A stretch of 64,000 bases of DNA from Christensenellaceae bacterium (GTDB taxonomy: Bacteria; Bacillota; Clostridia; Christensenellales; Christensenellaceae): the NCBI GenBank assembly GCA_022846035.1, contig AP025580.1:1364001-1428000 (forward strand), in the 5' to 3' direction. Shown piece by piece: positions 27,061 through 40,990 of the stretch. The position numbers and the translations under genes were made by a program. Positions within the stretch are counted from its first letter, which is position 1. The number at the start of each line of letters is the position of its first letter. Below the pieces are notes generated by a model, which saw only the letters and a program-made list of their open reading frames with translations, was not told where the DNA came from and made no database searches.

Positions 27061-27087
27061 ATAAAAAGCACCTTTTTCAGGTGCTTT
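27061..27087 (-). terminator. Terminator after the sigma factor gene
   Basis: A 9-bp perfect stem (AAAGCACCT/AGGTGCTTT, 5-nt loop) then TTATTA. It overlaps the sigma gene's stop codon. Confidence 0.78.
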
Positions 27088-27700
27088 GGTGTGTATTGAT
27101 TTTGCTGCGCATGGATGCAAGGATCTTCTTTTCTACTTTTGATATGTAAGATTGGGATACTCCCAGTAAATGTGCAACTTCCTTTTGCGTTTTCTCCGGA
27201 TACCCTTTGAGGCCAAACCGGTAATTGACAATCTCCTGCTGCTGTGGCGGCAAGTACAAAAGCATAGCCTCCAATATTTTACGGTTTTCTTCTCTTTCCA
27301 CGACATTCCAGACAGTATCAGCGTCCGTGCCCAGTATTCCATCCAACTTAAGATCGTTGTTTTCTTCCTCCATCGTCGTCATCCGTTGATCCAATGACAC
27401 TTCTCGGGACGCGTATGCATTGCTGCGAAGATACATCAACATCTCATTTTTGATGCAGGTAGACGCATATGTACTGAACTTCACATTTTTACTTTCGTCA
27501 AAACTTTCGACAGCTTTGATAAGACCAATGCTACCCACAGAGACTAAATCCTCCTGCCTTGTACGATGATTGGCATATTTGCGGGCAAGCATCGTCACAA
27601 GATCGAGGTTATCTTCAATCATTTCATCTTTTACATTAGTTCCGGATTTTTCTTTTTCCGGCTCTTCCGTTTTTCGGGAAATGACAGAAACTTCTTTCAT
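27077..27700 (-). CDS. Sporulation-type sigma factor (SigE/SigK group) without pro-sequence
   Basis: 207 residues. Region 2 reads EDLVSVGSIGLIKAVESF and YASTCIKNEMLMYLRSN. Regions 3-4 end with EKTQKEVAHLLGVSQSYIS, the helix-turn-helix. The closest pattern is SigE/SigK. It lies directly after ftsZ, the place of spoIIGA-sigE-sigG in spore formers, but spoIIGA is absent. The N-terminus before DNLDLVTMLARKY has only about 29 residues, all hydrophilic, so the usual membrane pro-sequence and most of region 1.2 are missing. The SD is weak (GGAG 13 nt upstream). It is a sigma factor with good certainty; a sporulation role is uncertain. Confidence 0.85.
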   Translation of the reverse strand: MKEVSVISRKTEEPEKEKSGTNVKDEMIEDNLDLVTMLARKYANHRTRQEDLVSVGSIGLIKAVESFDESKNVKFSTYASTCIKNEMLMYLRSNAYASREVSLDQRMTTMEEENNDLKLDGILGTDADTVWNVVEREENRKILEAMLLYLPPQQQEIVNYRFGLKGYPEKTQKEVAHLLGVSQSYISKVEKKILASMRSKINTHQST

Positions 27701-27878: not shown

Positions 27879-29117
27879 TTAATAATCACTGCGGTTCCTT
27901 CTGGGTTTCTTTTTCAGGAAAGACGGGATCTCCAAATCCTCGTCGCCAAACATATCCAGTCCGCTGCTGTCGGCATTGCTGCCAGACCCCATTGACTGCG
28001 GCTCGGGAACATCAAACGAAGGCTTTCTTCTGCTTGCCGGCGAAGAAAACGGCTCTACATCGAGCGGTTCATCATCTGTAAAACTGATCGTTTCTTTCAG
28101 CTTCGGCTTGCCGGATGCGTCGATCCTGTTATCCGCAGAAACATTTCCCGCTTCCTGCGGCTGCGCGTCAAAACCCGTAGCGATAACGGTAATGCGCACT
28201 TCATCGTCCAGCGACGGATCGATGCACACGCCGAAAAATACATCTGCCTCAGGATCCGCACTTTCCTGAATAATCTTGGCAGCTTCCTGAATTTCGTACA
28301 TTCCCAGCGACGGGTCGCCCGTCACATTAAAGATGATCCCGCGCGCTCCCTCAATCGTCGTATCGAGAAGCGGGCTGTTAATTGCCTGTTTCGCGGCTTC
28401 CACGGTTTTGTTCTCGCCGTAGCCGATTCCGATACCCATATGGGCAACGCCGCGAAGCGTCATTACTTTCTTCACATCGGCGAAGTCCAGATTAATAAGC
28501 GCCGGTTTGCCGATCAGGTCAATAATGCCCTGAATTCCCTGACGCAGCACATCGTCCGCCACGCGGAACGCGTCCACAAGCGGCGTATCCTTGCCCACCG
28601 TATTGAGCAGCTTATCGTTCGGTATCGTGACAATCGTATCCACTACCGATTTCAGCGTTTCAAAACCAGCCTCTGCCGCTTTTGCCCTCGGATGCCCCTC
28701 AAACCAAAACGGCTTGGTCACAAATCCGATGGTAAGCGCGTTGGTCTCTTTCGCGATCTCCGCGACTACAGGCGCGGCGCCCGTGCCCGTGCCGCCGCCA
28801 AGGCCGCAGGAAACGAAAACAAGGTCAGAGCCCTTTACAGCCTGCTCCAGTTCTTCACGGCTTTCCTCCGCCGCCTTTCTGCCCGTCTCCGGATCCGCGC
28901 CCGATCCGAGGCCTTTGGTCAGCTTTTCGCCGATCTGGATTTTCTGATCCGCCTTGGACAAGAAAAGCGCCTGTTTATCCGTATTGACGGCAATCAGCTC
29001 TGCACCTTTCACGCCAAATTCTATCATGCGGTTCACAGCGTTATTGCCGGCACCGCCTACACCAAAAACGCGTATTTTTGCGAAATTCTCACTGTTATTG
29101 TCAAATTCGAGTGACAT
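27879..29117 (-). CDS. ftsZ: Cell division protein FtsZ
   Basis: 412 residues; tubulin-like GTPase of the division ring. [10 protein letters not shown] is near residue 21 and the GTP signature [11 protein letters not shown] starts at 107. A variable linker (about 320-390) follows, and the conserved C-terminal peptide [13 protein letters not shown] binds FtsA and other partners. It lies 27 nt after ftsA and ends the dcw transcript at a strong terminator. Confidence 0.98.
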
Positions 29118-29144: not shown

Positions 29145-30326
29145 TTATTCAAACAGTATATCCTGGCCCTTACTGAACAGTCCTTTTTTTCTTGTCGGGG
29201 GCTTGCTTTGGATATATCCATCGTACGCATATTGCATAAGCGCATACGCCGAATGCATATCCGGCGGCATGAGCTTTGTATTAGGCACCTTGATCAGGTT
29301 GACCGATCTTCCGGCTACTGCCCGGAAAAAGCTATCGAAGCCTTTCATGAATGCCAGTCCGCCGCCTGTCAGGTAAATTTCAATTTTTCTGCCGATATTG
29401 CTTTCCAGCCTAGACATCACTTTGCCGATGTGCAAAATCAGATGTTCTACCCTGGAATCAATAATTTCCTTTAACAGATCATACGGATATTTTTTTAATT
29501 TCCCGTCCGAATTCTTAGCGAACAACTGCGAAATACTGTTGTTATCCGAGAGCCCGAACGTATATCTTCTCTTTAACTGCTCCGCCGTATCCCCTTCCAC
29601 TTTCATCGCGTAGGCAATATCGCTGGCAATATGCCCGCCGCCCATCGGGATTGTCGTAAAAAACAAGAGCGAATCCCCATAAACAAGCGATACATTGGTA
29701 CTATAATAACCGATATCGACCAAAACCGCAAGGGAATCGCGTTTGTCTTCAGGCAGCAGGTACAACGCCTCGGCAAGCGGTTCCGGTATAAAATAATCCA
29801 CACGTACGCCCAAATGATTTAACAGGTCCATTGCGTCGTTCAGAAAAAATTTATTTGCAAGCGTAAAGGATACGCACCCGCGCAGCCGTTTGGAGGGAAC
29901 GTCATAAGGTTCCAGATAGACGTTATTATCGTCAAGCAAGAACCACGCCGGCCACTCGTGAACCAGCGTCAAGTCCGACATAATATCGAAATTTCTTGCC
30001 TTTTCAATCAATAAATCAATATCGCGTTCCGCAACGCGCCCCTTAACCGGCACCTGCGCTTTTCTGTTAATCACTTTAATAAAGGCGCCCGGAATTCCAA
30101 CGTCCGCATTCCTGATACGAAATCCTGCCTGCCTTTCGCAGGATTCCAGCGCCTGCTCGACAGCGCCGATCACTTCCTTGGAATCTACCCAGTTCGTCTT
30201 TTTGATACCGGCATAAGGAATTTGGGAATAACCAAGAACTTCCAGCCCCATACGCTGCTTTTTCTCAGCAACCACACATGCTATTTTAGAAGTTCCAAAC
30301 TCAATTACCGTTTTGAAATCTCTCAT
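29145..30326 (-). CDS. ftsA: FtsA-like actin-family division protein
   Basis: 393 residues, upstream of ftsZ, where FtsA belongs. Actin-like fold: phosphate 1 motif EFGTSKIACVV (9-19), an SHS2-like insert (about 85-165), GGHIASDIA (about 230-238) and the adenosine motif LTGGGLAFMKGF (about 320). The phosphate 2 loop reads DIGYYSTN (204-211), where FtsA usually has DIGGGTTD. The C-terminus (RKKGLFSKGQDILFE) is a weak candidate for the membrane-binding helix. It tethers FtsZ to the membrane in the family. Position supports FtsA; the divergent loop also resembles PilM-type relatives. Confidence 0.85.
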   Translation of the reverse strand: MRDFKTVIEFGTSKIACVVAEKKQRMGLEVLGYSQIPYAGIKKTNWVDSKEVIGAVEQALESCERQAGFRIRNADVGIPGAFIKVINRKAQVPVKGRVAERDIDLLIEKARNFDIMSDLTLVHEWPAWFLLDDNNVYLEPYDVPSKRLRGCVSFTLANKFFLNDAMDLLNHLGVRVDYFIPEPLAEALYLLPEDKRDSLAVLVDIGYYSTNVSLVYGDSLLFFTTIPMGGGHIASDIAYAMKVEGDTAEQLKRRYTFGLSDNNSISQLFAKNSDGKLKKYPYDLLKEIIDSRVEHLILHIGKVMSRLESNIGRKIEIYLTGGGLAFMKGFDSFFRAVAGRSVNLIKVPNTKLMPPDMHSAYALMQYAYDGYIQSKPPTRKKGLFSKGQDILFE

Positions 30327-30498: not shown

Positions 30499-31326
30499 TT
30501 ATTCCTGTATTTCCGGCGACGCTGTCGTATCCGGTTCGCTTGTCGGTTCAGTCGGTGCGCCCGTACCTGCGGTTTGCGCCGCCGTACCGTCCGTCATCCG
30601 GTAAGTGCCGTTCGTGCCGCTCGTCACGTCATAAACGCCGCTTGTATTCCCATCGGATGCCAGTTTTGGCAGCATTTTTTTGATCCATTTCATTTTATCG
30701 CTTATCTTATCCGATTGTCCGAACTTGATCGTCATCCCGTCATAGGACTGCATTTTAATATTGTTAATGTCCGAAAGGTCGATCGTCGAAATCGTTGCAA
30801 ACAGCTCCTTCGTTTCCATTTCTTTCAGAAGATCCGATAATACCGATATTTTAAAGGTGTCCTCTGTATCGATCATTTTTCCCAAATTGACCGAGTTGAT
30901 CGTGATTCCGCTCACCACAGGATACTGTTGTTCTGGCTGCTCATCCAGAATCTCCAGCACGTTTGCCTCGCCGTCGACCAGCAAATACTTATCCGCATAA
31001 AGAATCAGCGCCTTTGGCGTACGCTCCGTTACGTTGATCACCAGAGTTTTGGGATACGCCTTAACAATGCCGTCCACCTGCAGATATGGCTCCGCCTCGA
31101 TATTCTCCTTAATTTGCTCCGTGTCTACCAGAAACATATGCGTCTTGGGCGGAACGTCCGCTAGCTTCACGACATAACTTACGTCATATTGGGCGGTTCC
31201 TTTCACTTCGACATCCTCAACCTGAAAATAAACATAAATAAAGTAACCTGCCCCCGCAAGTATCAATATTGTCAAAACAACTGCCAAAATAGTTTTTCCC
31301 ACGCTGTGTTTGTGTTGTTTCTTCAT
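30499..31326 (-). CDS. ftsQ: Cell division protein FtsQ/DivIB
   Basis: 275 residues; bitopic membrane protein of the FtsQLB divisome subcomplex. A short basic cytoplasmic N-terminus and one membrane helix (about 12-32) are followed by the POTRA domain (VEDVEVKGTAQYDVSYVV onward) and the FtsQ beta domain (about 105-215). The Ser/Thr/Pro-rich tail ends the protein. It lies 9 nt after ftsW; murG, which often sits between them, is not there. Confidence 0.93.
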   Translation of the reverse strand: MKKQHKHSVGKTILAVVLTILILAGAGYFIYVYFQVEDVEVKGTAQYDVSYVVKLADVPPKTHMFLVDTEQIKENIEAEPYLQVDGIVKAYPKTLVINVTERTPKALILYADKYLLVDGEANVLEILDEQPEQQYPVVSGITINSVNLGKMIDTEDTFKISVLSDLLKEMETKELFATISTIDLSDINNIKMQSYDGMTIKFGQSDKISDKMKWIKKMLPKLASDGNTSGVYDVTSGTNGTYRMTDGTAAQTAGTGAPTEPTSEPDTTASPEIQE

Positions 31327-31335
31327 CCTTTACTC

Positions 31336-32487
31336 TTACTCCTCTGCCCTTTTGGCCATCATAATACGCCGCGATTGTTTTGATATATTAAGCATGATTC
31401 CTATCATACTCATAAAGATCACAAGCGATGAACTTCCATAACTGATAAACGGCAGCGAGACCCCCGTAGGCGGCAGCGAAGCCGTTACAACCCCTACATT
31501 AATGATTACCTGCAGCGCAATTACCGTTGTGACCCCCGTCGCGAGCATCGTTCCAAAAAGGTCCGGCGCTTGCGCGGCAGTCTTGATTCCCCGATAAACC
31601 AGGAAAACAAACAGTGCCAGCAATATAATCGCACCGATCAGGCCCAATTCTTCGGCTATAATCGCAAAAATGAAATCTGATTCCCCATACGGAAGCCAGG
31701 AAAGCTTTTGCGTGCCATTGCCGATCCCCTGCCCGAACAATCCGCCCGCACCGATCCCATAAAGCGATTGCACGACCTGGTATCCGCCTCCTGAAGCATT
31801 CTGCCACGGGTCGAGGAAAGTCGTGATTCGGTCCACGCGATAATCTTTCATCATCATGAGCGCAAAACCGCCGGCAACGCCTACGCCGCCCAGCGCCAGC
31901 AAATGCCACGCTTTCGCTCCCCCTACAAATATCATAATAAACGTCAGCGCGCAAAGCACGATGATCGCCGAAAAATTCGGCTGCAAATAAAGCAGGATAC
32001 AAATGGGTATCAGGGCCAAAAGCGGCGGTATCACGCCGTAACGAAAAGTATTCATTCTGTTGCGGTTCACATAAATCGCCGAAGAAATAAAAACAATGAG
32101 CGCCACCTTTGCGATTTCCGCGGGCTGCAGGCTGGGAAGCGGCCCGATTTCTATCCACCGCGAAGAACCGTTGATGTTCTTGCCAATCCCCGGAATAAAA
32201 ACCGCCACAAGGCACAGCCCAGCAACCACCAGCAATAGGTACTTGAACTTTATGAGCTTCTTATAATCAAAGAGCATAAAGAAAATCATAAAAACCAGCC
32301 CAATCGCCGCGCCGATCAATTGCTTTTTGAACAAAGCAAGCCCGTCATAGCCGTATAGCGATGACGACTGCGCCATATAATAGCTTGCGCTGAAAACCAT
32401 CAGCAAACCGTATGCGATTAAGATCAGTGTCACGATCAATAATGAATAATCAATCGACCCCTTCTGCAGGAGATTCGTTTTCCGCAT
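31336..32487 (-). CDS. ftsW: SEDS peptidoglycan glycosyltransferase FtsW
   Basis: 383 residues with about ten membrane helices. SEDS landmarks: NGSSRWIEIGPLPSLQPAEIAK (broken here as NGSSRW and LQPAEIAK), LYLQPNFSA, GQGIGNGTQKLSWLPYGESDFIFA (key part LPYGESDFIFA), and a late PFISYGSSSLV. Polymerises lipid II at the septum with a class B PBP partner. It is adjacent to murD (1 nt) and ftsQ. FtsW and SpoVE cannot be told apart by sequence alone. Confidence 0.94.
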   Translation of the reverse strand: MRKTNLLQKGSIDYSLLIVTLILIAYGLLMVFSASYYMAQSSSLYGYDGLALFKKQLIGAAIGLVFMIFFMLFDYKKLIKFKYLLLVVAGLCLVAVFIPGIGKNINGSSRWIEIGPLPSLQPAEIAKVALIVFISSAIYVNRNRMNTFRYGVIPPLLALIPICILLYLQPNFSAIIVLCALTFIMIFVGGAKAWHLLALGGVGVAGGFALMMMKDYRVDRITTFLDPWQNASGGGYQVVQSLYGIGAGGLFGQGIGNGTQKLSWLPYGESDFIFAIIAEELGLIGAIILLALFVFLVYRGIKTAAQAPDLFGTMLATGVTTVIALQVIINVGVVTASLPPTGVSLPFISYGSSSLVIFMSMIGIMLNISKQSRRIMMAKRAEE

Positions 32488-32488
32488 T

Positions 32489-33844
32489 CTATAAACCTTT
32501 CACGATTTCCTTGAACACACGTCCCCGCTGCTCAAAGTTCTCAAACATATCCCAACTCGCGCAGGCCGGTGAAAGCAAGACGTTATCGCCCGGCTCGGCA
32601 ATGCTGTAAGCCTTTAGCACCGCATCCTCAAACCCATTCGCCTTGATATAATTCTCATAACCGCAGGCGCGCGCCGCGTCGATAATCTTCTGCGCCGTAT
32701 CTCCCAGCACCAAAACGGCTTTAATCATAGGAGTAAATTCCATAAATAAAGGCACAAAATCATTCTTTTTATCATAACCGCCTAAAATCAGCACCGTAGG
32801 CTCCGTCATCGCGTGGATGGCGTTGATCGTCGCATCCGGATTCGTTCCTTTCGAATCGTTGATAAAGGATACGCCGTTTACCTTGCGCACAAACTCGATG
32901 CGATGCTCTACTCCTGGGAAAGTACGCAGCGTGTCCGCTACCACCTCTGTCGAAATACCGTAAAGACACGCGAGCGCGGTGGCTGCCAGCGCGTTTTCAA
33001 GATTATGCTTGCCGGGGATATGCAATTCTTTGGCCGGCATAATTACTCTTTCCACGCCGTCTACCGCAAAGCAAATGCTCCCGTCCCGCAGGTAAGCGCC
33101 GTTTTGCAGTATCTCCTCTGTGCTAAACCAGAAAACACGCGCCTTGATCGCATCCGCTAATTCCCGCACAATCTTATTGTCATAATTGAGCACGCAAAAA
33201 TCCTCAGCCCTTTGATTTTTGAAAATCTTCGCCTTGGCCGCAATATAATTTTCCATGGTACCGTAACGGTCCAGGTGGTCTTCCGTAATATTGAGAATCG
33301 CGCTCTCTTTCGGCTGGTACGTATCAATCGTATCCAGTTGCAGCGCCGCCGTCTCGGCGACAACAACATCGCCCGGATGCGTCTTAAGTGCTTCCTGTGT
33401 GATCGGCACGCCTATATTCCCCAGCACATGCGTATGGATGCCCGCGTTTTTAAATATCTCGCCGGTGAGCGCAGTCGTCGTCGTTTTCCCGTTGGTACCC
33501 GTTATCGCAATGAAATCCGCTTTTGAGACGGAAAAACCCAGCTCGATCTCCGCAATCACAGGTTTATGAAGCTCATAGGCCCGTTTAATGAACGGAAGAC
33601 CGAGCGGCACGCCCGGACTCAGAACGAGCATATCCATTTCTGCCACTTTATCGGTCGGGTCGATCCCCAGCATATCGTGATACTGGTAACCGTCCAGCTC
33701 TTTTAATAATTCGGCAGGGATGTCCTCGCGCCGCTTTACGTCATAAATCGTTACATCCGCGCCCAAAGCGCACAAAAGCGCCGCAGAAGAAACGCCGCTT
33801 TTTGCCATCCCTATCACCAGGACTTTTTTATCTTTGTATTCCAT
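32489..33844 (-). CDS. murD: UDP-N-acetylmuramoyl-L-alanine:D-glutamate ligase
   Basis: 451 residues from ATG at 33844, chosen because GGAGGAGG lies 5 nt upstream; the longest frame begins 7 codons earlier. It adds D-Glu to UDP-MurNAc-L-Ala. The N-terminal UDP-binding GMAKSGVSSA, the ATP loop ITGTNGKTTTTAL, and the C-terminal ligase domain with NDSKGTNPDAT are all intact. It lies between mraY and ftsW. Confidence 0.97.
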   Translation of the reverse strand: MEYKDKKVLVIGMAKSGVSSAALLCALGADVTIYDVKRREDIPAELLKELDGYQYHDMLGIDPTDKVAEMDMLVLSPGVPLGLPFIKRAYELHKPVIAEIELGFSVSKADFIAITGTNGKTTTTALTGEIFKNAGIHTHVLGNIGVPITQEALKTHPGDVVVAETAALQLDTIDTYQPKESAILNITEDHLDRYGTMENYIAAKAKIFKNQRAEDFCVLNYDNKIVRELADAIKARVFWFSTEEILQNGAYLRDGSICFAVDGVERVIMPAKELHIPGKHNLENALAATALACLYGISTEVVADTLRTFPGVEHRIEFVRKVNGVSFINDSKGTNPDATINAIHAMTEPTVLILGGYDKKNDFVPLFMEFTPMIKAVLVLGDTAQKIIDAARACGYENYIKANGFEDAVLKAYSIAEPGDNVLLSPACASWDMFENFEQRGRVFKEIVKGL

Positions 33845-33861
33845 TCCAGCCTCCTCCAAAG

Positions 33862-34866
33862 TCACGCAAAGAATAACAATAGACTTCCCACGCTAAAGAG
33901 CATCGTTGCAATCATGTATCCTGCGACAACTTTCGTTTCGTGGGCGCCCGCCAACTCAAAATGATGGTGCAAGGGAGCCATACGGAACACACGCTTGCCG
34001 CGCAGTTTAAACGATCCTACCTGAATGATGACGGAAATTGCCGACAATACAAACATAAAGCCCATGATAGGCAGGAACAACTGCATTTCCGTCGCAATGC
34101 CCATTGCGGTTAATGCGGCTCCCAAAAGGAAAGAGCCGGTATCTCCCATAAACACTTTGGCCGGATAGGCATTGAAGCACAAAAAAGCGATACACGTGCC
34201 CATCACCGCCGCCGCGAACATAGTCATATTGGACATATCCGCTTGTATTTCCGGACTGATCATCGCCGCTCCCAGTACGCTGAAAATAAAAATCAGCAGG
34301 AAAGTTGCAGAATTGATCAGGGTAATCCCCGTGGCAAGACCGTCAAGCCCATCCGTCAAATTCACGCTGTTCACCATGGCAATCAGCACAAACATCGTGA
34401 AAGGTATAAACCCTGCTCCAAGCTGCCATTCCGTTCCGGCGATCGGTAAATAGATCGTTTTGATGTCCAGCCAAAAATATGCCATGCATGAAATCACGGC
34501 AGCCGCGACAAGCTGAAACACAATCTTCTGCCACGCGCGCAATCCCAATGAACGTTTTTTAAAAAGCTTTAAGCCGTCATCCAAAAAACCGATCACCGCA
34601 AAGGCCAGTACCGTCACGATCGCAAAGACGGTATAGCGCATATCTCCCGACGAAAAAACAAAGCTTCCACAGACAATGCCGATCATCATAATCACGCCGC
34701 CCATTGTCGGCGTGCCTTCCTTTACCAGATGTGTCTGCGGCCCGTCATCCCTTACGTGCTGCCCTGCTTTTGCTTTTCTCAAAAGCGGTATTATTATTTT
34801 AGCCGCAACGAATGTTATTGCAAACGAAATCAGTATTGTGAATAACATGTTTATCATGAAGTCCAT
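33862..34866 (-). CDS. mraY: Phospho-MurNAc-pentapeptide-transferase
   Basis: 334 residues with about ten membrane helices; makes lipid I on the inner face of the membrane. Conserved loops: GTPTMGG (about 52), DDGLKLFKKR with the catalytic aspartates, NLTDGLDGLATG (about 170) and MGDTGSFLLGA, then APLHHHFE. The start overlaps the murE 3' end by 13 nt, so translation is coupled. murF normally precedes mraY and is absent. Confidence 0.97.
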   Translation of the reverse strand: MDFMINMLFTILISFAITFVAAKIIIPLLRKAKAGQHVRDDGPQTHLVKEGTPTMGGVIMMIGIVCGSFVFSSGDMRYTVFAIVTVLAFAVIGFLDDGLKLFKKRSLGLRAWQKIVFQLVAAAVISCMAYFWLDIKTIYLPIAGTEWQLGAGFIPFTMFVLIAMVNSVNLTDGLDGLATGITLINSATFLLIFIFSVLGAAMISPEIQADMSNMTMFAAAVMGTCIAFLCFNAYPAKVFMGDTGSFLLGAALTAMGIATEMQLFLPIMGFMFVLSAISVIIQVGSFKLRGKRVFRMAPLHHHFELAGAHETKVVAGYMIATMLFSVGSLLLFFA

Positions 34867-36347
34867 AAAGCCTTATTCCTTTTCGTCTTCCTTTTTTCTT
34901 TAAATCCCAGTTCATCCAGGATTTCCGACACAACGACCCTTTCATCAAAATCATGTTTCGCGCCTTTGATTTCCTGATAATCTTCATGCCCTTTTCCCGC
35001 CAGCAAGATGATGTCTTTGGGCTGTGCATGCCTGATCGCCCATTTGATCGCTTCTCTGCGGTCCTCAATACGCGTATATTCGCCGCCCGATTCTTTCATC
35101 CCTTCTTCGATCTGATCGATGATAGCCGCAGGCTCTTCAAAACGGGGATTATCGGATGTCAGTACGGTAAAATCAGAGTAATCCCCCGCTATCCTGCCCA
35201 TGATCGGACGTTTGCCAGCATCCCTGTTGCCGCCACATCCTACAATCGTAACGATGCGCCCCGGCGCAAAGCTTTTGATCGTAGACAAAGCATTTTTTAA
35301 GCTATCCGGCGTATGGGCATAATCAAGGATAATACCGAAATCCTGCCCGCGCGTATTTAAAGGCTGGAAACGTCCTGCAACCGGTTGCATCTCCTTTAAA
35401 CCCTGCTCGATGTAATGGGGATTAATCCCCAGCGCATATGCCGCGACGATTGCGCCCAGCGCATTGTATACGGTAAACTGTCCGGGAATGGCGATTTCTA
35501 TCTTGAGGGTATTGGACCCCATATCCACCGAAAAGCTTGTTCCCTCGTGAGAAATCTCGATTTCCTTGGCCATGTATTGCACAGGCTGCATCACGCTGTA
35601 TTTGATGACCTCGCTTTTCGCCGCCGCCATCATGTTTGCGGCGCTGTCGTCGTCTATGTTGATAACCGATTTCTGCGACTGTTCGAAAAGCAGGCTTTTA
35701 GCATGTATGTAGTTATCCCATGTTTTATGGAAATCCAGATGATCCTGCGTCAAATTCGTAAAAATGCCCACGTCAAAGGCGATCCCAAAAACACGCTTTA
35801 ATTCGAGGGAATGCGAAGACACTTCCATTACGACAATTTCGCAATGGTTGTCCGCCATTTTCTTTAACAGCCTTTGCAGATCAATGGATTCCGGCGTGGT
35901 GCGTTCCGTATGCAATTCCCGCTCGCCGATCATATTGACGATTGTGCCGATAAGCCCTACCTTATATCCCGCATGCTCCGCAATCGACTTCAGCATATAC
36001 GTCGTTGTCGTTTTTCCGTTTGTTCCTGTAACGCCCACCATCGTCATACGCCTTGCGGGATGTCCGAAAAAATTGCATGCCGCAAGCGCCATTGCCTCAC
36101 GGTCGTTTTTTACAATGACCTGTGGGATTTTCAGTTCCGGCTGGTACTCCATCACCACTACCGCAGCCGCGCCTTTGCGTACGGCGTCCGGCGCGTATTT
36201 ATGTCCATCCTCCGCGAAGCCGGCGATACAGAAAAAAAGGTCGCCGCGCTTCACGGTACGGGAGTCATATTTCAGGTCTTTTATATCAATATCTTCGTTG
36301 CTTCTTATGTCACATCTGATACCGCGAAATATTTCAGACAGTCTCAT
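34854..36347 (-). CDS. murE: UDP-MurNAc-tripeptide ligase, meso-diaminopimelate type
   Basis: 497 residues. The ATP loop VTGTNGKTTTTYMLK is near residue 110. ERTTPES marks UDP-MurNAc-dipeptide binding. TSDNPRFEEP (about 400) is the DNPR motif that selects meso-DAP over lysine, so the wall is probably DAP-type. The SD GGAGGT lies 8 nt before the ATG at 36347. A local extended -10 promoter lies just upstream. Confidence 0.96.
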   Translation of the reverse strand: MRLSEIFRGIRCDIRSNEDIDIKDLKYDSRTVKRGDLFFCIAGFAEDGHKYAPDAVRKGAAAVVVMEYQPELKIPQVIVKNDREAMALAACNFFGHPARRMTMVGVTGTNGKTTTTYMLKSIAEHAGYKVGLIGTIVNMIGERELHTERTTPESIDLQRLLKKMADNHCEIVVMEVSSHSLELKRVFGIAFDVGIFTNLTQDHLDFHKTWDNYIHAKSLLFEQSQKSVINIDDDSAANMMAAAKSEVIKYSVMQPVQYMAKEIEISHEGTSFSVDMGSNTLKIEIAIPGQFTVYNALGAIVAAYALGINPHYIEQGLKEMQPVAGRFQPLNTRGQDFGIILDYAHTPDSLKNALSTIKSFAPGRIVTIVGCGGNRDAGKRPIMGRIAGDYSDFTVLTSDNPRFEEPAAIIDQIEEGMKESGGEYTRIEDRREAIKWAIRHAQPKDIILLAGKGHEDYQEIKGAKHDFDERVVVSEILDELGFKEKRKTKRNKALWTS

Positions 36348-36403: not shown

Positions 36404-38512
36404 CTACTGCGCCGTGTCTATTTGTAGTTTGAACTCAACCGTTACCGTCGCGCCCTTTTCCACCTGTAAACCCGCTATCGGCTTCTGGCTCTGCGCCCTG
36501 CCGTCTCCGAGCGCCACAAATTTTAATCCCGCGCCGATCGCTGCATCGCGCGCTTCGTTTATGTTCATTCCCGTAAAATCAGGAACGGTCACCATTTCGG
36601 CATTCGGAGTCGCTTCCGATTTCGTTTCCATGTTGAGCGTTACGGTCGAACCCGCGTATACTTCCTCGTCCGAAGCGGGTATCTGACTTAATACACTGCC
36701 GCTGCCGTCAAGTTTTACCGACAAACCTGCATTTGCCAATGTATCTTTTGCTGTCTGCATATCCATACCAACGACATTGGGAACCGCGACTTTCTGCGCG
36801 CTGCGCGCCGCCTCGTCGTCAGGCGCGATGTTGTTGTTTTTCAATATGTCTTCCAGTACCTTTTTTGCATATGGCGCGCACACCGTTTCGTCGTTATCTC
36901 CTGCCGAGATACCGTTTGCAGTGACCATCACCAGGTATCTGGGGCTGTCTGCCGGCGCAAAGGCAAAGAAAGAGGAGACTACTTTGTCCTGCACGGGCAC
37001 ATCACCATCGTACAGCATGGAAGATCCGCTGATACCGCCTACCGAATAACCCGCGATCTGCGCTTCGCCGCCGTCTCCGCTCTGGATATAGTCCAACATC
37101 ATCGTTTTAAGCTGCGAGGCAACGTCAGCGGTTACCGTCTGTCCTTTTACTTCCGCGTCATACTGCTCAACGATATTACCGTTGCCGTCCGCAAGTCCCA
37201 ACACCAGTCTGGGCGTATACAGCGTTCCGCCGTTCAACAGTGACGACAGTGCATCGGCCATCTGGATTTGCGATACTTTCATGTTTTCGCCCGCACCCAT
37301 CAGCGCAACGTCCGCCTGCCGCGCATATTTCTTTTCCATGACGTCGCCAAGCGTATCCGTCGCAAAATCGATCCCTGTTTTTTCACCGAATCCGAAAGCT
37401 TTCAGATACTGGTAGAAAGTATCCTTTCCCAGTGCATTTGCCTGCTGGGCCGCAGCGATACTACAATGGTTTTGTACCGCTTGCAGCATATTCTGTGTGC
37501 CATGCACCGCGCTGCACGATATTTTTTCCCCGTCAATGACATCCGAACCATTGCACGTATATTCTCCCGTGGCGCTTTCGTTTAGCGCTGCTGCCGTAGT
37601 GAAGATTCCAAAAATACTCCCGGGTTCATACGGCGTTGCAGTAATCGTATTGACTGATAGAGCCGCAAGCGCAGACGCATCGTCGCGCGGCGGATCGTTA
37701 AGGTCGAACTGCGGGATATTGGCCATCGCCAGTATTTCCCCCGTGGTAACGTCCATTACGAGTCCTTGTACGCTGTTTGGCGCGTGGTCCGTATATAAGG
37801 CGTTGCAATAGTCCTCAAGAATGCTTTGCGCCATCTCATCGATCGTCAATACCACGCTCTGGCCATCCTGTGGATCGATAATCATTTCCTGTCCGTTCGG
37901 TACGCCGCTGCCATCTTTTGCCGTTTCCGTTACCTGGCGGCCCTGGCGCCCTTCCAGAATGCTGTTATAACGCTTTTCAATGCCGGTCTGTCCTACGCCG
38001 TCCTGTGTCGTATAGCCGATTACCTGTGATGCAAAATCCTTATTCAGATAAAACCTCTTTACATCGTCAATCAGGCTCACGCCTTTCAGCTTCAGATTCT
38101 CAATCTCTTCAGACTGTTCTGTTGTGATCTGCCGTTTCAGCCATATTTCCTTTTTCTCAGTGTTGGTCGCCTTTGCGTATACGTCCTCGCGCGGCATATC
38201 GAGTATCCGCGACAGTTCCTCCGCCACCTGATCCGCATTGCCTGCTTTCGCGATTGCCTCCGGCTGGATTGCCACCGTATAGGCTGCGGCGCTCTGTGCC
38301 AGCACATACATGTTGCGGTCATAAATCGACCCGCGTTTTGCATCCACCTCAACATCGCGCGTCCATTGTTTCTGTGCTTTTTCCTGCAACCATTCGCCCT
38401 TCAATAAAGACCAATATCCCACTCGGCACATGAGCAGGATAATAAGTACAGACAATATAATTAGTATGACCAGTAACCTTTTTCTGGTTATGAGTACTCG
38501 TGACGTTGACAA
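36404..38512 (-). CDS. Class B penicillin-binding-protein homologue with degenerate active site and PASTA domains
   Basis: 702 residues in the ftsI/spoVD slot of the dcw cluster. One N-terminal membrane helix (about 12-32), a pedestal domain (RGSIYDRN about 57), a transpeptidase-like domain (about 250-560), and two PASTA repeats (about 575-640 and 645-700). All three catalytic motifs are changed: the expected SxxK is S299-I-F-G302, SxN is H349-C-S351, and KTG is I494-S-G496. The frame is intact with no stop or shift, so it looks like a maintained non-catalytic protein. The start is TTG at 38512 with AGGAG 6 nt upstream. Probably structural or regulatory, perhaps through PASTA binding; transpeptidase activity is not expected. 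Confidence 0.88.
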   Translation of the reverse strand: MSTSRVLITRKRLLVILIILSVLIILLMCRVGYWSLLKGEWLQEKAQKQWTRDVEVDAKRGSIYDRNMYVLAQSAAAYTVAIQPEAIAKAGNADQVAEELSRILDMPREDVYAKATNTEKKEIWLKRQITTEQSEEIENLKLKGVSLIDDVKRFYLNKDFASQVIGYTTQDGVGQTGIEKRYNSILEGRQGRQVTETAKDGSGVPNGQEMIIDPQDGQSVVLTIDEMAQSILEDYCNALYTDHAPNSVQGLVMDVTTGEILAMANIPQFDLNDPPRDDASALAALSVNTITATPYEPGSIFGIFTTAAALNESATGEYTCNGSDVIDGEKISCSAVHGTQNMLQAVQNHCSIAAAQQANALGKDTFYQYLKAFGFGEKTGIDFATDTLGDVMEKKYARQADVALMGAGENMKVSQIQMADALSSLLNGGTLYTPRLVLGLADGNGNIVEQYDAEVKGQTVTADVASQLKTMMLDYIQSGDGGEAQIAGYSVGGISGSSMLYDGDVPVQDKVVSSFFAFAPADSPRYLVMVTANGISAGDNDETVCAPYAKKVLEDILKNNNIAPDDEAARSAQKVAVPNVVGMDMQTAKDTLANAGLSVKLDGSGSVLSQIPASDEEVYAGSTVTLNMETKSEATPNAEMVTVPDFTGMNINEARDAAIGAGLKFVALGDGRAQSQKPIAGLQVEKGATVTVEFKLQIDTAQ

Positions 38513-38525
38513 TGTTTACTCCTGT

Positions 38526-39554
38526 TTAATTCTGGAACCATCCCTTGATCATATCCAGAATTGTATTGATAAAGCCGCCAAATCCGCTTGCAGTATCATT
38601 TGACTGCGTATCCACCGCGCCTGTTTGCGTCAGGTCGGCGCTCCCCTCTGCCGTGACCGAATCCTGCGGCGCAGAAGCATCCACACTATCCTGTACGTCC
38701 GGCTCCACAAACACGATCTGATCATCCTTGGGCTCGGACATCCCCATGGCCGCCGCCTGCTGGCGGATACTGCTCAGGTCTTCTTTCAGCGAAACTTCCA
38801 TTTTCGCTTTATCAAGGTCCTGCGTAAGCGATTGAATACGCGATTCTATCTGTGCATTTTGGTAGTTTAAGTTGCTGATCTGCGAATAACGGATCAGGAT
38901 TCCCGCCAAAACCGCGAAAACCACAGCGATAAGGATAATCGTTGAAACAACGCCTTTCCTTTTGGGGGCTTCATATTCTACCGCGATCGGCTTTACGCCG
39001 TTATATGCGCTTGTGTCTGCCGTTTCCACCATGTCAAAGCCGTGGATAGGCTTTCTTCTCGGCTGTACAGGGCGGGATACCGGACGTTCGTACGCTGTTC
39101 TTTCATAGCGTCCATACGCCGGAGCATAGGCTGTCCTCTGCTGTGCGTAGCCATATCCGCTTCTTGGATTCTGGCGCGGACGCGGGCTGCGCTCACGTAC
39201 GGTTTCGCGGTACCCGTAATTTCCTGCAGGCACGCTGACTTCATATGCCGGCGTCAGCTTTCTGCCGCCGACGACGTTTTTGACGCCTGTCTGGCGAACC
39301 TGTTCACGCGTATCATAAACCTCGCGCCGCTGCTGCACCGGACGGGCCGCCTGCTTACGCTGCTGTTGTTTCGCGCGTTCATACTCCATACGTTCTTCGT
39401 ATGCTTTTTTTCTCTGCAGAGCGATTTTCTGCATATTATAAGCCTGCATGTCGGTAATCCGCCCCATGCGTTGCTGTGCATTTCTGTTCGTCGAACTGTT
39501 GCGCGGTATTTGTATTCTTTCGTAATTGTGCGCTTTTTGCGGTATCGCGTTCAT
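38526..39554 (-). CDS. FtsL-like bitopic division protein with long cytoplasmic domain
   Basis: 342 residues between rsmH and the PBP gene, the usual place of ftsL. Residues 1-200 are hydrophilic, rich in Arg, Gln, Tyr and Pro, and look disordered. A single membrane helix spans 202-222, a short coiled coil 226-268, and an acidic Ser/Asp/Thr-rich linker 275-322. The last 18 residues (GGFINTILDMIKGWFQN) form a likely amphipathic helix. Ordinary FtsL is about 100-130 residues with a short cytoplasmic end, so this is an extended form. The topology and position support the FtsL role; sequence alone does not prove it. Confidence 0.72.
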   Translation of the reverse strand: MNAIPQKAHNYERIQIPRNSSTNRNAQQRMGRITDMQAYNMQKIALQRKKAYEERMEYERAKQQQRKQAARPVQQRREVYDTREQVRQTGVKNVVGGRKLTPAYEVSVPAGNYGYRETVRERSPRPRQNPRSGYGYAQQRTAYAPAYGRYERTAYERPVSRPVQPRRKPIHGFDMVETADTSAYNGVKPIAVEYEAPKRKGVVSTIILIAVVFAVLAGILIRYSQISNLNYQNAQIESRIQSLTQDLDKAKMEVSLKEDLSSIRQQAAAMGMSEPKDDQIVFVEPDVQDSVDASAPQDSVTAEGSADLTQTGAVDTQSNDTASGFGGFINTILDMIKGWFQN

Positions 39555-39569
39555 GATACAGTTCCTCTC

Positions 39570-40511
39570 CTATCGCTTTTCAACCACACGCAGTTTCGCA
39601 CTGCGCGCTCTTGGATTTTCGTTTAATTCCTTTTCTGCAGGCACGACCGGTTTTCGTGTGACCAGCTTTATCTGACTTTTCTTCCCGCATACGCAAATCG
39701 GGAAATCCTTGGGGCATTCGCACGGGTCAAACAGCCTTTTGAAAGTTTGCTTTACGATTCTGTCTTCCAGCGAATGGAAAGTAATCACCGCCAGCCTGCC
39801 GCCGCTTCTGAGCGCCTGCACATAAGCTTCAAGCGCGTCGCCCAGCCCTTTCAGTTCGCCGTTGACTTCTATCCGGATCGCCTGGAAGCTCCGTTTCGCG
39901 GGATGCGGACCCTCGCGCCTCGCACCTGCCGGTATCGCTTCCTTAATGATCTGCGCAAGTTCGCCCGTCGTCTCTATCGCCTTATCGGTCCGCGCCTTTG
40001 CAATGAACTTCGCGATACGGGCCGCCCATTTTTCTTCACCATACTCGCGCAGGATATGCGTCAGTTCATTTTCAGTATATTCGTTGACGACCTCTTTTGC
40101 GCTCAGTTCATTCTCCTGGTTCATCCGCATATCGAGCGGAGCATCTTTCTGGTAAGAGAATCCGCGTTCTCTCTCGTCAAGCTGGAAAGATGAAACGCCT
40201 AAATCCAGCACCGCGCCATCTATCTCTTTAATCCCGTTCTCTTCAAGAATATTTTTGATATTCTTGAAGTCGTCATGTACAAATAGAATATTTTTTTCAA
40301 GCGCATGCAACCGCTTCTTACAGCGCCGGACCGCCGCCGTGTCCTTGTCAATACCGACCAGCCGTCCGTCCGGCATGATCCTTTCAAGGATACCCTGCGA
40401 ATGTCCGCCGCCGCCCATCGTCCCGTCCACTATCGTCTGTCCGTTTTCAAGACAAAGGGCATCGATCGTTTCCATATACAACACTGGAATGTGGCTGCCC
40501 TGCGTGATCAT
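39570..40511 (-). CDS. rsmH: 16S rRNA (cytosine-1402-N4)-methyltransferase
   Basis: 313 residues. The SAM-binding loop [15 protein letters not shown] (about 29-43), [19 protein letters not shown] (key part LGVSSFQLD) and RPHPAKR-like [14 protein letters not shown] are typical of RsmH/MraW. It methylates the ribosomal P-site. The ATG overlaps the mraZ stop by 4 nt (ATGA). Confidence 0.97.
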
Positions 40512-40939
40512 ATTCCCAGCTCCGCCAGCTTCGCCAGTGTTTCCTCGTAATCCTTGTATGCGCTGTCGTTATATTCTGCCCAGCCCTCTTTGGACCAGAT
40601 TTCGGCCCTGGTCATCACGCCGATAATCACTGTCTCCTTGACCGCGCCAATATGGTCTCTTAGGCGTTGCGGTAAAAGGATTCTTCCCTGTTTGTCCCCT
40701 TCACATTCACACGCGCTTGCAAATAACATACGCGTAAAACTCTGAGCGGCAACATCCGAAACCGGTAGGTCTTTCAGCTTGCCAGCAAAATTTTCCCACT
40801 CTGTTTTGGAGAATACAAACAAACATTTTCCCACGCCTTTCGTAACGATAAAGCTTTCGCCCAGATCGTCGCGAAACTTCGCAGGCATGAAAACTCTGCC
40901 TTTTGCATCTAAATTGTGCGAATATTCTCCGATCAGCAT
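40508..40939 (-). CDS. mraZ: Transcriptional regulator MraZ
   Basis: 143 residues, the standard length, from ATG at 40939. The longest frame adds 12 residues that read through its own operator and SD. AbrB-like doubled domain, starting [19 protein letters not shown], with a second DKQGRILLP repeat. It represses its own dcw operon in other bacteria by binding direct repeats in front of mraZ, and such repeats are seen here. First gene of the cluster. Confidence 0.96.
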
Positions 40940-40960
40940 TTTCGCGGCAAACTCCTTTCC

Positions 40961-40990
40961 ACCACATTTAACCACATTTCACCACTTGTA
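40961..40990 (-). promoter_or_regulatory. MraZ operator: three 10-bp direct repeats
   Basis: The plus strand reads ACCACATTTA, ACCACATTTC and ACCACTTGTA in tandem; on the coding strand this is GTGGT at exact 10-bp steps. Known MraZ boxes are short G-rich repeats (TGGGN) with the same helical spacing. The array lies between the -10 and the SD, ideal for repression. Confidence 0.82.

Follow-up and report, generated by a model that had tools for sequence, protein, structure and literature searches.

A natural SpoVD-derived pseudoenzyme in the dcw cluster of Christensenella that is probably kept as a non-catalytic partner of its SEDS polymerase

The DNA analyzed here, called the window, is a stretch of 64,000 nucleotides from a Christensenellaceae bacterium (contig AP025580.1, positions 1,364,001 to 1,428,000), and it carries the division and cell wall (dcw) gene cluster. 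An open reading frame of this cluster, at 36404-38512 on the minus strand, encodes a class B penicillin-binding protein (PBP) of 702 amino acids in which the three active-site motifs of a transpeptidase are gone; judged from its residues, this protein descends from a SpoVD-type PBP and has become a natural pseudoenzyme. The evolutionary account, in which these residues were lost repeatedly, the gene stayed under purifying selection and the losses follow a sporulation marker, is well supported. We consider it probable that a former SpoVD has been kept, after sporulation was lost, as a non-catalytic partner of the SEDS polymerase encoded in the same cluster, and that another PBP performs the cross-linking. 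Both the binding and activation of FtsW by the PBP and the identity of the cross-linking enzyme are what we infer from these data.

The reading frame begins with a TTG codon, has an AGGAG site upstream, and contains zero internal stops. Its features are as follows.

36404..38512, minus strand: SpoVD-like class B PBP without catalytic motifs, 702 amino acids, TTG start; best NCBIfam model SpoVD, below its cut-off
38420..38476, minus strand: membrane anchor, residues 13-31 (hydropathy window)
37907..38347, minus strand: pedestal or PBP dimerisation domain (PBP_dimer, Pfam PF03717), residues 56-202
36854..37762, minus strand: transpeptidase-fold domain, residues 251-553 (Pfam PF00905, 158.5 bits; closest fold C. 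difficile SpoVD)
37607..37618, minus strand: SIFG in place of SxxK, residues 299-302 (sequence and ortholog alignment)
37460..37468, minus strand: HCS in place of SxN, residues 349-351 (sequence and ortholog alignment)
37025..37033, minus strand: ISG in place of KTG, residues 494-496 (sequence and ortholog alignment)
36434..36790, minus strand: two PASTA domains, approximately residues 575-693 (Pfam PF03793, two stretches; outer end approximate)

The reading frame, the Pfam and hydropathy results and the fold match bear out a preliminary description of this DNA, which had proposed an intact frame with an anchor, a pedestal, a transpeptidase-like fold and two PASTA domains. Its reading of the motif sites was also accurate: S299-I-F-G302 (with the codon GGA at the lysine position), H349-C-S351 and I494-S-G496 align with the STFK, SCN and KTG of C. 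difficile SpoVD (PDB 7rcz). The latter is the best PDB match by sequence (E 2.1e-83), and a comparison of folds likewise ranks C. difficile SpoVD first (TM 0.58 by query and 0.78 by target), using a predicted model of mean pLDDT 66.3 that was built from a four-sequence alignment and serves for fold only. The best NCBIfam model is that of SpoVD (TIGR02214), with 494.6 bits, which is below the equivalog cut-off of 688. The protein therefore has the architecture of a class B PBP, with a membrane anchor, a dimerisation or pedestal domain and a transpeptidase domain and with the transglycosylase domain absent, and it lacks the SxxK, SxN and KTG by which an active transpeptidase of this class is recognized. 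It resembles SpoVD in being nearest to that protein among the class B PBPs, in bearing PASTA domains and in its place in the dcw cluster. It departs from SpoVD in the matter of sporulation, as no SpoIVA was found in the host genome (spo0A and spoIIE were not searched) and the genus is described as non-spore-forming. With a conserved fold, lost catalytic residues and purifying selection it has the properties of a pseudoenzyme, and its inactivity is predicted from its residues. Those needed for acylation appear to be missing, so that, as had been suggested earlier, the protein would not be expected to cross-link the wall or to bind beta-lactams covalently.

To place this protein among its relatives, the genomes of its family and order were compared. 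All 18 family genomes and 357 of the 396 genomes of the order contain an ortholog (E <= 1e-40); genomes absent from the match tables, which show every genome with a match, were counted as negative. The motifs were read in 103 orthologs, and later in 123, of the 357 matching genomes, mostly those ranked highest by similarity to the query, which is a non-random sample. All three motifs are intact in 86 of the 103 and the remaining 17 are degenerate, and chance was thereby rejected as the source of the motif state. None of the three motifs is present in any of the six genomes examined from the genus itself (g1, Christensenella), so the changes are fixed in close relatives. Degenerate orthologs were also found in one of one genome of g2, two of two of g5, two of seven of g3, one of two of g4 and three of seven of family f18, with one more each in f11 (G027) and f22 (G038). 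Twelve of the 17 have lost all three motifs, counting G009, whose third motif was read beyond an assembly gap. The independent losses share no common replacement residues. The gene tree requires seven changes of the intact or degenerate label, each forced by well-supported branches, and still seven after 20 genes were added; this number is an estimate, since family f1 is split in the tree and fast-evolving degenerate genes may be misplaced.

Several simpler explanations were considered and set aside. Sequencing error is very unlikely, because the motifs are missing in all six genus genomes and the replacement residues differ among them. Another copy of the dcw PBP with intact motifs elsewhere in the genome was rejected at E <= 1e-40, each degenerate genome having a single match apart from G009, in which two matches flank one run of N. 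That the protein is still catalytic through another residue, such as His349 or the remaining Ser299, both of which are present in the window protein, is hardly credible: the serine position reads S, S, N, N, D and N in the six genus genomes, the motif lysines are gone (the SxxK lysine position is G in five and S in one), and the position of His349, a residue kept in six of six, is occupied by Q or G in the sister genera g2 and g5.

The dcw PBP gene is under purifying selection in Christensenella. Compared with an 85%-identical relative, the window gene has an overall dN/dS of 0.058; by domain, the value is 0.027 for the pedestal, 0.060 for the transpeptidase domain and 0.106 for the PASTA domains. 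These values are rough, as synonymous sites are near saturation (pS 0.65) and the domain columns are offset by one residue. The PASTA domains are the least conserved part in genus pairs, and the proposal that they sense wall fragments found no evidence. On a fixed tree, the 174 intact branches gave a ratio of transpeptidase to pedestal branch length of 0.75, and the seven degenerate lineages gave ratios of 2.15, 2.94, 1.95, 1.14, 1.83, 2.73 and 2.15 (Mann-Whitney p = 5e-9 for 141 intact versus 21 degenerate branches with a pedestal length > 0.05). Exact domain masks were used for this test, with the motif columns removed and the later-added genome G374 not included. Constraint has thus moved toward the pedestal in the degenerate lineages. 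In E. coli, the pedestal is reported to contact extracellular loop 4 (ECL4) of FtsW for activation (PMC8078798). Another explanation for the retention of the gene is that the transpeptidase-like domain took on a new non-covalent task, for instance the binding of stem peptides, of a regulator or of FtsL/FtsQ, and that this is the main reason for keeping the protein. The continued conservation of this domain and the presence of His349 throughout the genus favor such a task; however, its rate of evolution is relatively higher than in intact relatives and the replacement residues are not common across the losses, and we regard this explanation as unlikely.

Loss of PBP catalysis tracks loss of sporulation. 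SpoIVA (PF09547), found in 329 of the 396 genomes of the order, occurs in 0 of 17 degenerate versus 77 of 86 intact genomes (Fisher 2.7e-13), and in 0 of 12 versus 66 of 70 among genomes at least 90% complete (p = 2e-11); the Fisher p-values given here and below ignore relatedness. It had been predicted beforehand that the ortholog of G374, from a genus with both genomes SpoIVA-negative, would be degenerate, and this held, with SMFE, SCY and ISG at the motif sites. All 14 of the SpoIVA-positive controls, which were predicted to be intact, were intact. Five more SpoIVA-negative genomes, for which the outcome had been left open beforehand, were all intact; three of them are less than 90% complete and three have SpoIVA-positive genus members, neither of which applies to G258 (92%). 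When all 123 orthologs read are counted, 91 of the 105 intact genomes carry SpoIVA, compared with 0 of the 18 degenerate ones. The literature reports that the catalysis of SpoVD is required for the cortex in B. subtilis (PMC3906833) and in C. difficile (PMC12713402), and describes Christensenella as non-spore-forming (PMC7937921, PMC8289216). The preliminary description had placed the gene at the SpoVD/FtsI position, and a SpoVD ancestry was indeed found; neither this ancestry nor the link to sporulation loss was part of it.

On the minus strand, the dcw cluster of the window reads mraZ, rsmH, FtsL-like gene, PBP, murE, mraY, murD, FtsW, FtsQ, FtsA and FtsZ, in a host genome of 2.77 Mb (one contig, 99.8% complete). 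The genes around the PBP are as follows.

40508..40975, minus strand: MraZ (Pfam)
39570..40511, minus strand: RsmH, also called MraW (Pfam)
38526..39554, minus strand: FtsL-like protein of 342 amino acids with a long N-terminal extension (weak NCBIfam FtsL matches below cut-off; no Pfam match)
34854..36347, minus strand: MurE (Pfam and NCBIfam)
33862..34866, minus strand: MraY (NCBIfam TIGR00445, above cut-off)
32489..33865, minus strand: MurD (NCBIfam TIGR01087, above cut-off)
31336..32487, minus strand: SEDS polymerase of the FtsW/SpoVE type, the presumed partner of the PBP, with the putative catalytic Asp kept (Pfam, NCBIfam)
30499..31326, minus strand: FtsQ (Pfam)
29145..30326, minus strand: FtsA (Pfam above cut-off; NCBIfam FtsA just below cut-off)
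27879..29117, minus strand: FtsZ (NCBIfam above cut-off)
27077..27700, minus strand: SigE-like sigma factor without approximately its first 50 residues (206 bits versus a cut-off of 339, profile positions 55-238)

The SEDS protein scores best with the NCBIfam model of SpoVE (385.2, below 448.8) and next with that of FtsW (369.3, above 337.5), and by these profiles the PBP and the SEDS protein form a dcw pair of the SpoVD-SpoVE type. The hydrophobic segment of the FtsL-like protein is preceded by approximately 200 residues with a high content of Arg, Gln and Tyr. Elsewhere, a Bacillota metagenome-assembled genome (locus L042, 2680-6917) has at its dcw locus two adjoining class B PBPs with PASTA domains, the motifs reading SIFK, SCN and KTG in one and STFK, SCN and, for KTG, KTA in the other.

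The sporulation block behind the ftsZ of the window is eroded. In G018, a SpoIVA-positive genome of the order, ftsZ is followed by SpoIIGA (190.9 bits, below the cut-off of 209.55), SigE, SigG and nrdR, while in the window it is followed by 178 bases, the SigE-like protein of 207 amino acids and then nrdR. Both spoIIGA and sigG are absent from the ftsZ-nrdR block of the window and present in G018, the sole comparator; the stretch examined from G010 contains FtsW, with ftsZ outside it, and so offers no comparison for this block. The SigE-like gene is also found in G002 of the genus, and the truncated protein is likely a relic or a reuse of the sporulation block. It lacks the N-terminal pro-region, and a sporulation sigma factor may here have been retained to serve another use.

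The dcw PBP and FtsW tend to be kept or lost together. An FtsW of the dcw type is present in 16 of the 17 degenerate genomes (the match in G157 contains one TAG), and the residue that corresponds to D297 of E. coli FtsW, by our reading of a conserved loop, is kept in 16 of 16; D297 is given as the putative catalytic Asp in PMC8765783. In 14 genomes of family f4 (genera g8, g68 and g82), no dcw PBP (E <= 1e-40), no SpoIVA and no FtsW above paralog level were found, the best FtsW matches reaching at most 138 bits compared with 131 and 137 for the paralogs of the window genome. Six f4 dcw loci (L148-L153; g68, g82) have mraZ, murE, mraY, murD, FtsA and FtsZ with no rsmH, FtsL-like gene, PBP or FtsW between them, and three of these loci have a SEDS match and an MrdA-like match outside mraZ. 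Because the PBP and FtsW are both gone in these 14 f4 genomes and both kept in 16 of the 17 degenerate genomes, the pair tends to share its fate. This fits the scaffolding or FtsW-activating role proposed in the preliminary description. According to PMC10693644, whose main text does not contain the string Christensenell-, the dcw SEDS gene disappears along with sporulation in Firmicutes, with mixed patterns in some Clostridia.

The f4 genomes also raise the question of whether the PBP is simply a functionless, slowly dying leftover that persists only because the loss of sporulation is recent and the operon is required. The loss of the whole pair in these SpoIVA-negative genomes and the acceleration of the catalytic domain would agree with this. 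However, the frames are open in all 17 degenerate orthologs except at the assembly gap of G009, the nine genes of Christensenella and two sister genera are all degenerate yet full-length where assembled, and dN/dS is low in a genus that spans down to the 62% identity of the dcw PBP gene in C. intestinihominis. We therefore give this explanation little credence. A pseudogene already in decay was rejected by the open frames in the genus and a dN/dS of about 0.05; the preliminary description had named relatives with intact motifs, combined with such decay, as evidence against its view, and of these only the intact relatives exist.

If the dcw PBP is not catalytic, another enzyme would be required to cross-link the new wall. 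Pfam identified five transpeptidase proteins in the host genome, and the four besides the dcw PBP read as motif-intact; the preliminary description had proposed to look for another catalytic class B PBP.

Host genome: PbpA-like PBP, 463 amino acids, beside its own SEDS gene; STMK/SCN/KTG
Host genome: PBP3-like PBP, 719 amino acids, with a MecA_N domain; SAFK/SDN/KTG
Host genome: PBP2/MrdA-like PBP, 847 amino acids, near MreC and a SEDS gene; SIFK/SCN/KTG
Host genome: class A PBP, 1001 amino acids; SSMK/SLN/KTG

A PBP3/MecA-like protein occurs in 16 of the 17 degenerate genomes, by its MecA_N domain in 13 and by protein search in G007, G011 and G157, with its motifs intact in 16 of 16; none was found in G012 (72% complete). 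The cross-linking of FtsW-made strands is most likely the work of a separate catalytic PBP, with this protein as the leading candidate. The situation resembles that of engineered B. subtilis, where PBP2B S309A is viable only with catalytic PBP3 (PMC5656894). In C. difficile, PBP3 is described as assisting inactive SpoVD without catalysis of its own (PMC12713402). It is also conceivable, although in our judgment rather unlikely, that the same non-catalytic role is combined with cross-links from the PbpA-like PBP or the class A PBP instead. Both are motif-intact in the host genome, 12 of the 17 degenerate genomes have a PbpA, whose motifs are intact in 11 of 12 checked (the window genome included), and a class A PBP is reported to be the core divisome synthase of vegetative division in C. 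difficile (PMC10693644). The class A PBP is a possible cross-linker. Against this, PbpA was not found in five of the 17 and is degenerate in G061, whereas the PBP3-like protein is intact in all 16 checked; the survey of the class A PBP covered the host genome. In G061 (L164, G061:C42:170510-172070) the PbpA-like PBP reads SLFY/SCS/TEG, giving that genome two degenerate class B PBPs beside an intact PBP3-like protein. The L,D-transpeptidase domain YkuD showed no clear link with degeneracy: of the 18 family genomes, 12 have it, and these comprise 9 of the 12 degenerate and 3 of the 6 intact ones.

Taken together, our preferred explanation is that the ancestral gene was a SpoVD whose transpeptidase activity was presumably needed for the spore cortex, as in sporulating relatives. 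Once sporulation disappeared from the lineage of the gut bacterium Christensenella, the active site would no longer have been under selection, and the body of the PBP would have been retained as a non-catalytic partner of the FtsW/SpoVE-type polymerase. Its anchor and pedestal may bind FtsW and turn it on within the divisome, as in a division PBP of the FtsI/PBP2B type, for which the shared retention and loss and the pattern of rates are indirect signs. The strands made by FtsW would be cross-linked by a separate PBP, most likely the PBP3/MecA-like one. A number of observations weigh against this explanation. SpoIVA is a single sporulation marker. Of the 105 genomes with intact motifs, 14 lack SpoIVA, including G021 (97% complete) and G064 (98%), and sporulation loss is therefore insufficient, the rule being one-way. 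Neither MecA_N (13 of 17 degenerate versus 54 of 86 intact, p = 0.41) nor PbpA (12 of 17 versus 45 of 86, p = 0.19) is enriched in degenerate genomes, and both were rejected as predictors of degeneracy. Two cases are partial, G027 with SxxK kept and G038 with a single K-to-E change. The transpeptidase domain is still constrained, which a pure pedestal role leaves unexplained and which is only partly explained overall. The f4 genomes show that the PBP-FtsW pair is dispensable. Finally, G011 has a degenerate PBP with FtsW undetected, in an assembly that is 69% complete and in which MraY is undetected too; its dcw cluster (L142, G011:C2:1-14000) ends after murE inside the contig, with no mraY, murD or ftsW ortholog in the 6.8 kb beyond.

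The protein is similar to the SpoVD of C. difficile (7rcz) and B. subtilis in its dcw position, its anchor-pedestal-transpeptidase-PASTA plan and its best NCBIfam and PDB matches, but differs in lacking SxxK, SxN and KTG, in scoring below the equivalog cut-off and in having a host without SpoIVA. Three known situations are comparable. Engineered B. subtilis with PBP2B S309A and PBP3 (PMC5656894) likewise combines an inactive dcw class B PBP with an intact MecA-like PBP; in contrast, the present case is natural and repeated, has all motifs eroded and resembles SpoVD and not PBP2B, and its dependence on PBP3 is putative. In C. difficile carrying SpoVD S311A (PMC12713402), the non-catalytic body works partly in asymmetric division and needs SpoVE; there the cortex still requires catalysis and PBP3 acts non-catalytically, whereas here SpoIVA is missing. 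The loss of the dcw SEDS gene and class B PBP with sporulation in Firmicutes (PMC10693644) has the same presumed trigger, and the f4 genomes fit it, but Christensenella retains both genes and loses only the PBP active site. Among the literature matches listed, which consist of titles and the beginnings of abstracts with few subscription papers and no preprints, there was no report of a naturally inactive SpoVD/FtsI in Christensenella or its order, and no description of a pair kept with only the PBP active site lost.

More broadly, SpoVD/SpoVE pairs in non-sporulating Clostridia may repeatedly have become an uncoupled machine, in which a SEDS polymerase driven by a pseudo-transpeptidase would make uncross-linked glycan, the PBP subunit would be blind to beta-lactams and a separate enzyme, probably of the PBP3/MecA type, would cross-link. 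This would be a third evolutionary fate of the dcw pair besides staying active and being lost, but it is a tentative generalization that could well be wrong. Family-based annotation would still match the window PBP to the transpeptidase domain. If our explanation is correct, beta-lactams could not acylate this subunit in Christensenella. The link to sporulation suggests that the spore cortex had preserved the chemistry of the PBP until that loss. An FtsW-type polymerase and its transpeptidase are usually viewed as one coupled machine, and evolution seems to have split their functions several times within one order. The degenerate orthologs would thus be natural separation-of-function proteins, with which the contribution of the class B PBP body as opposed to its chemistry becomes directly testable.
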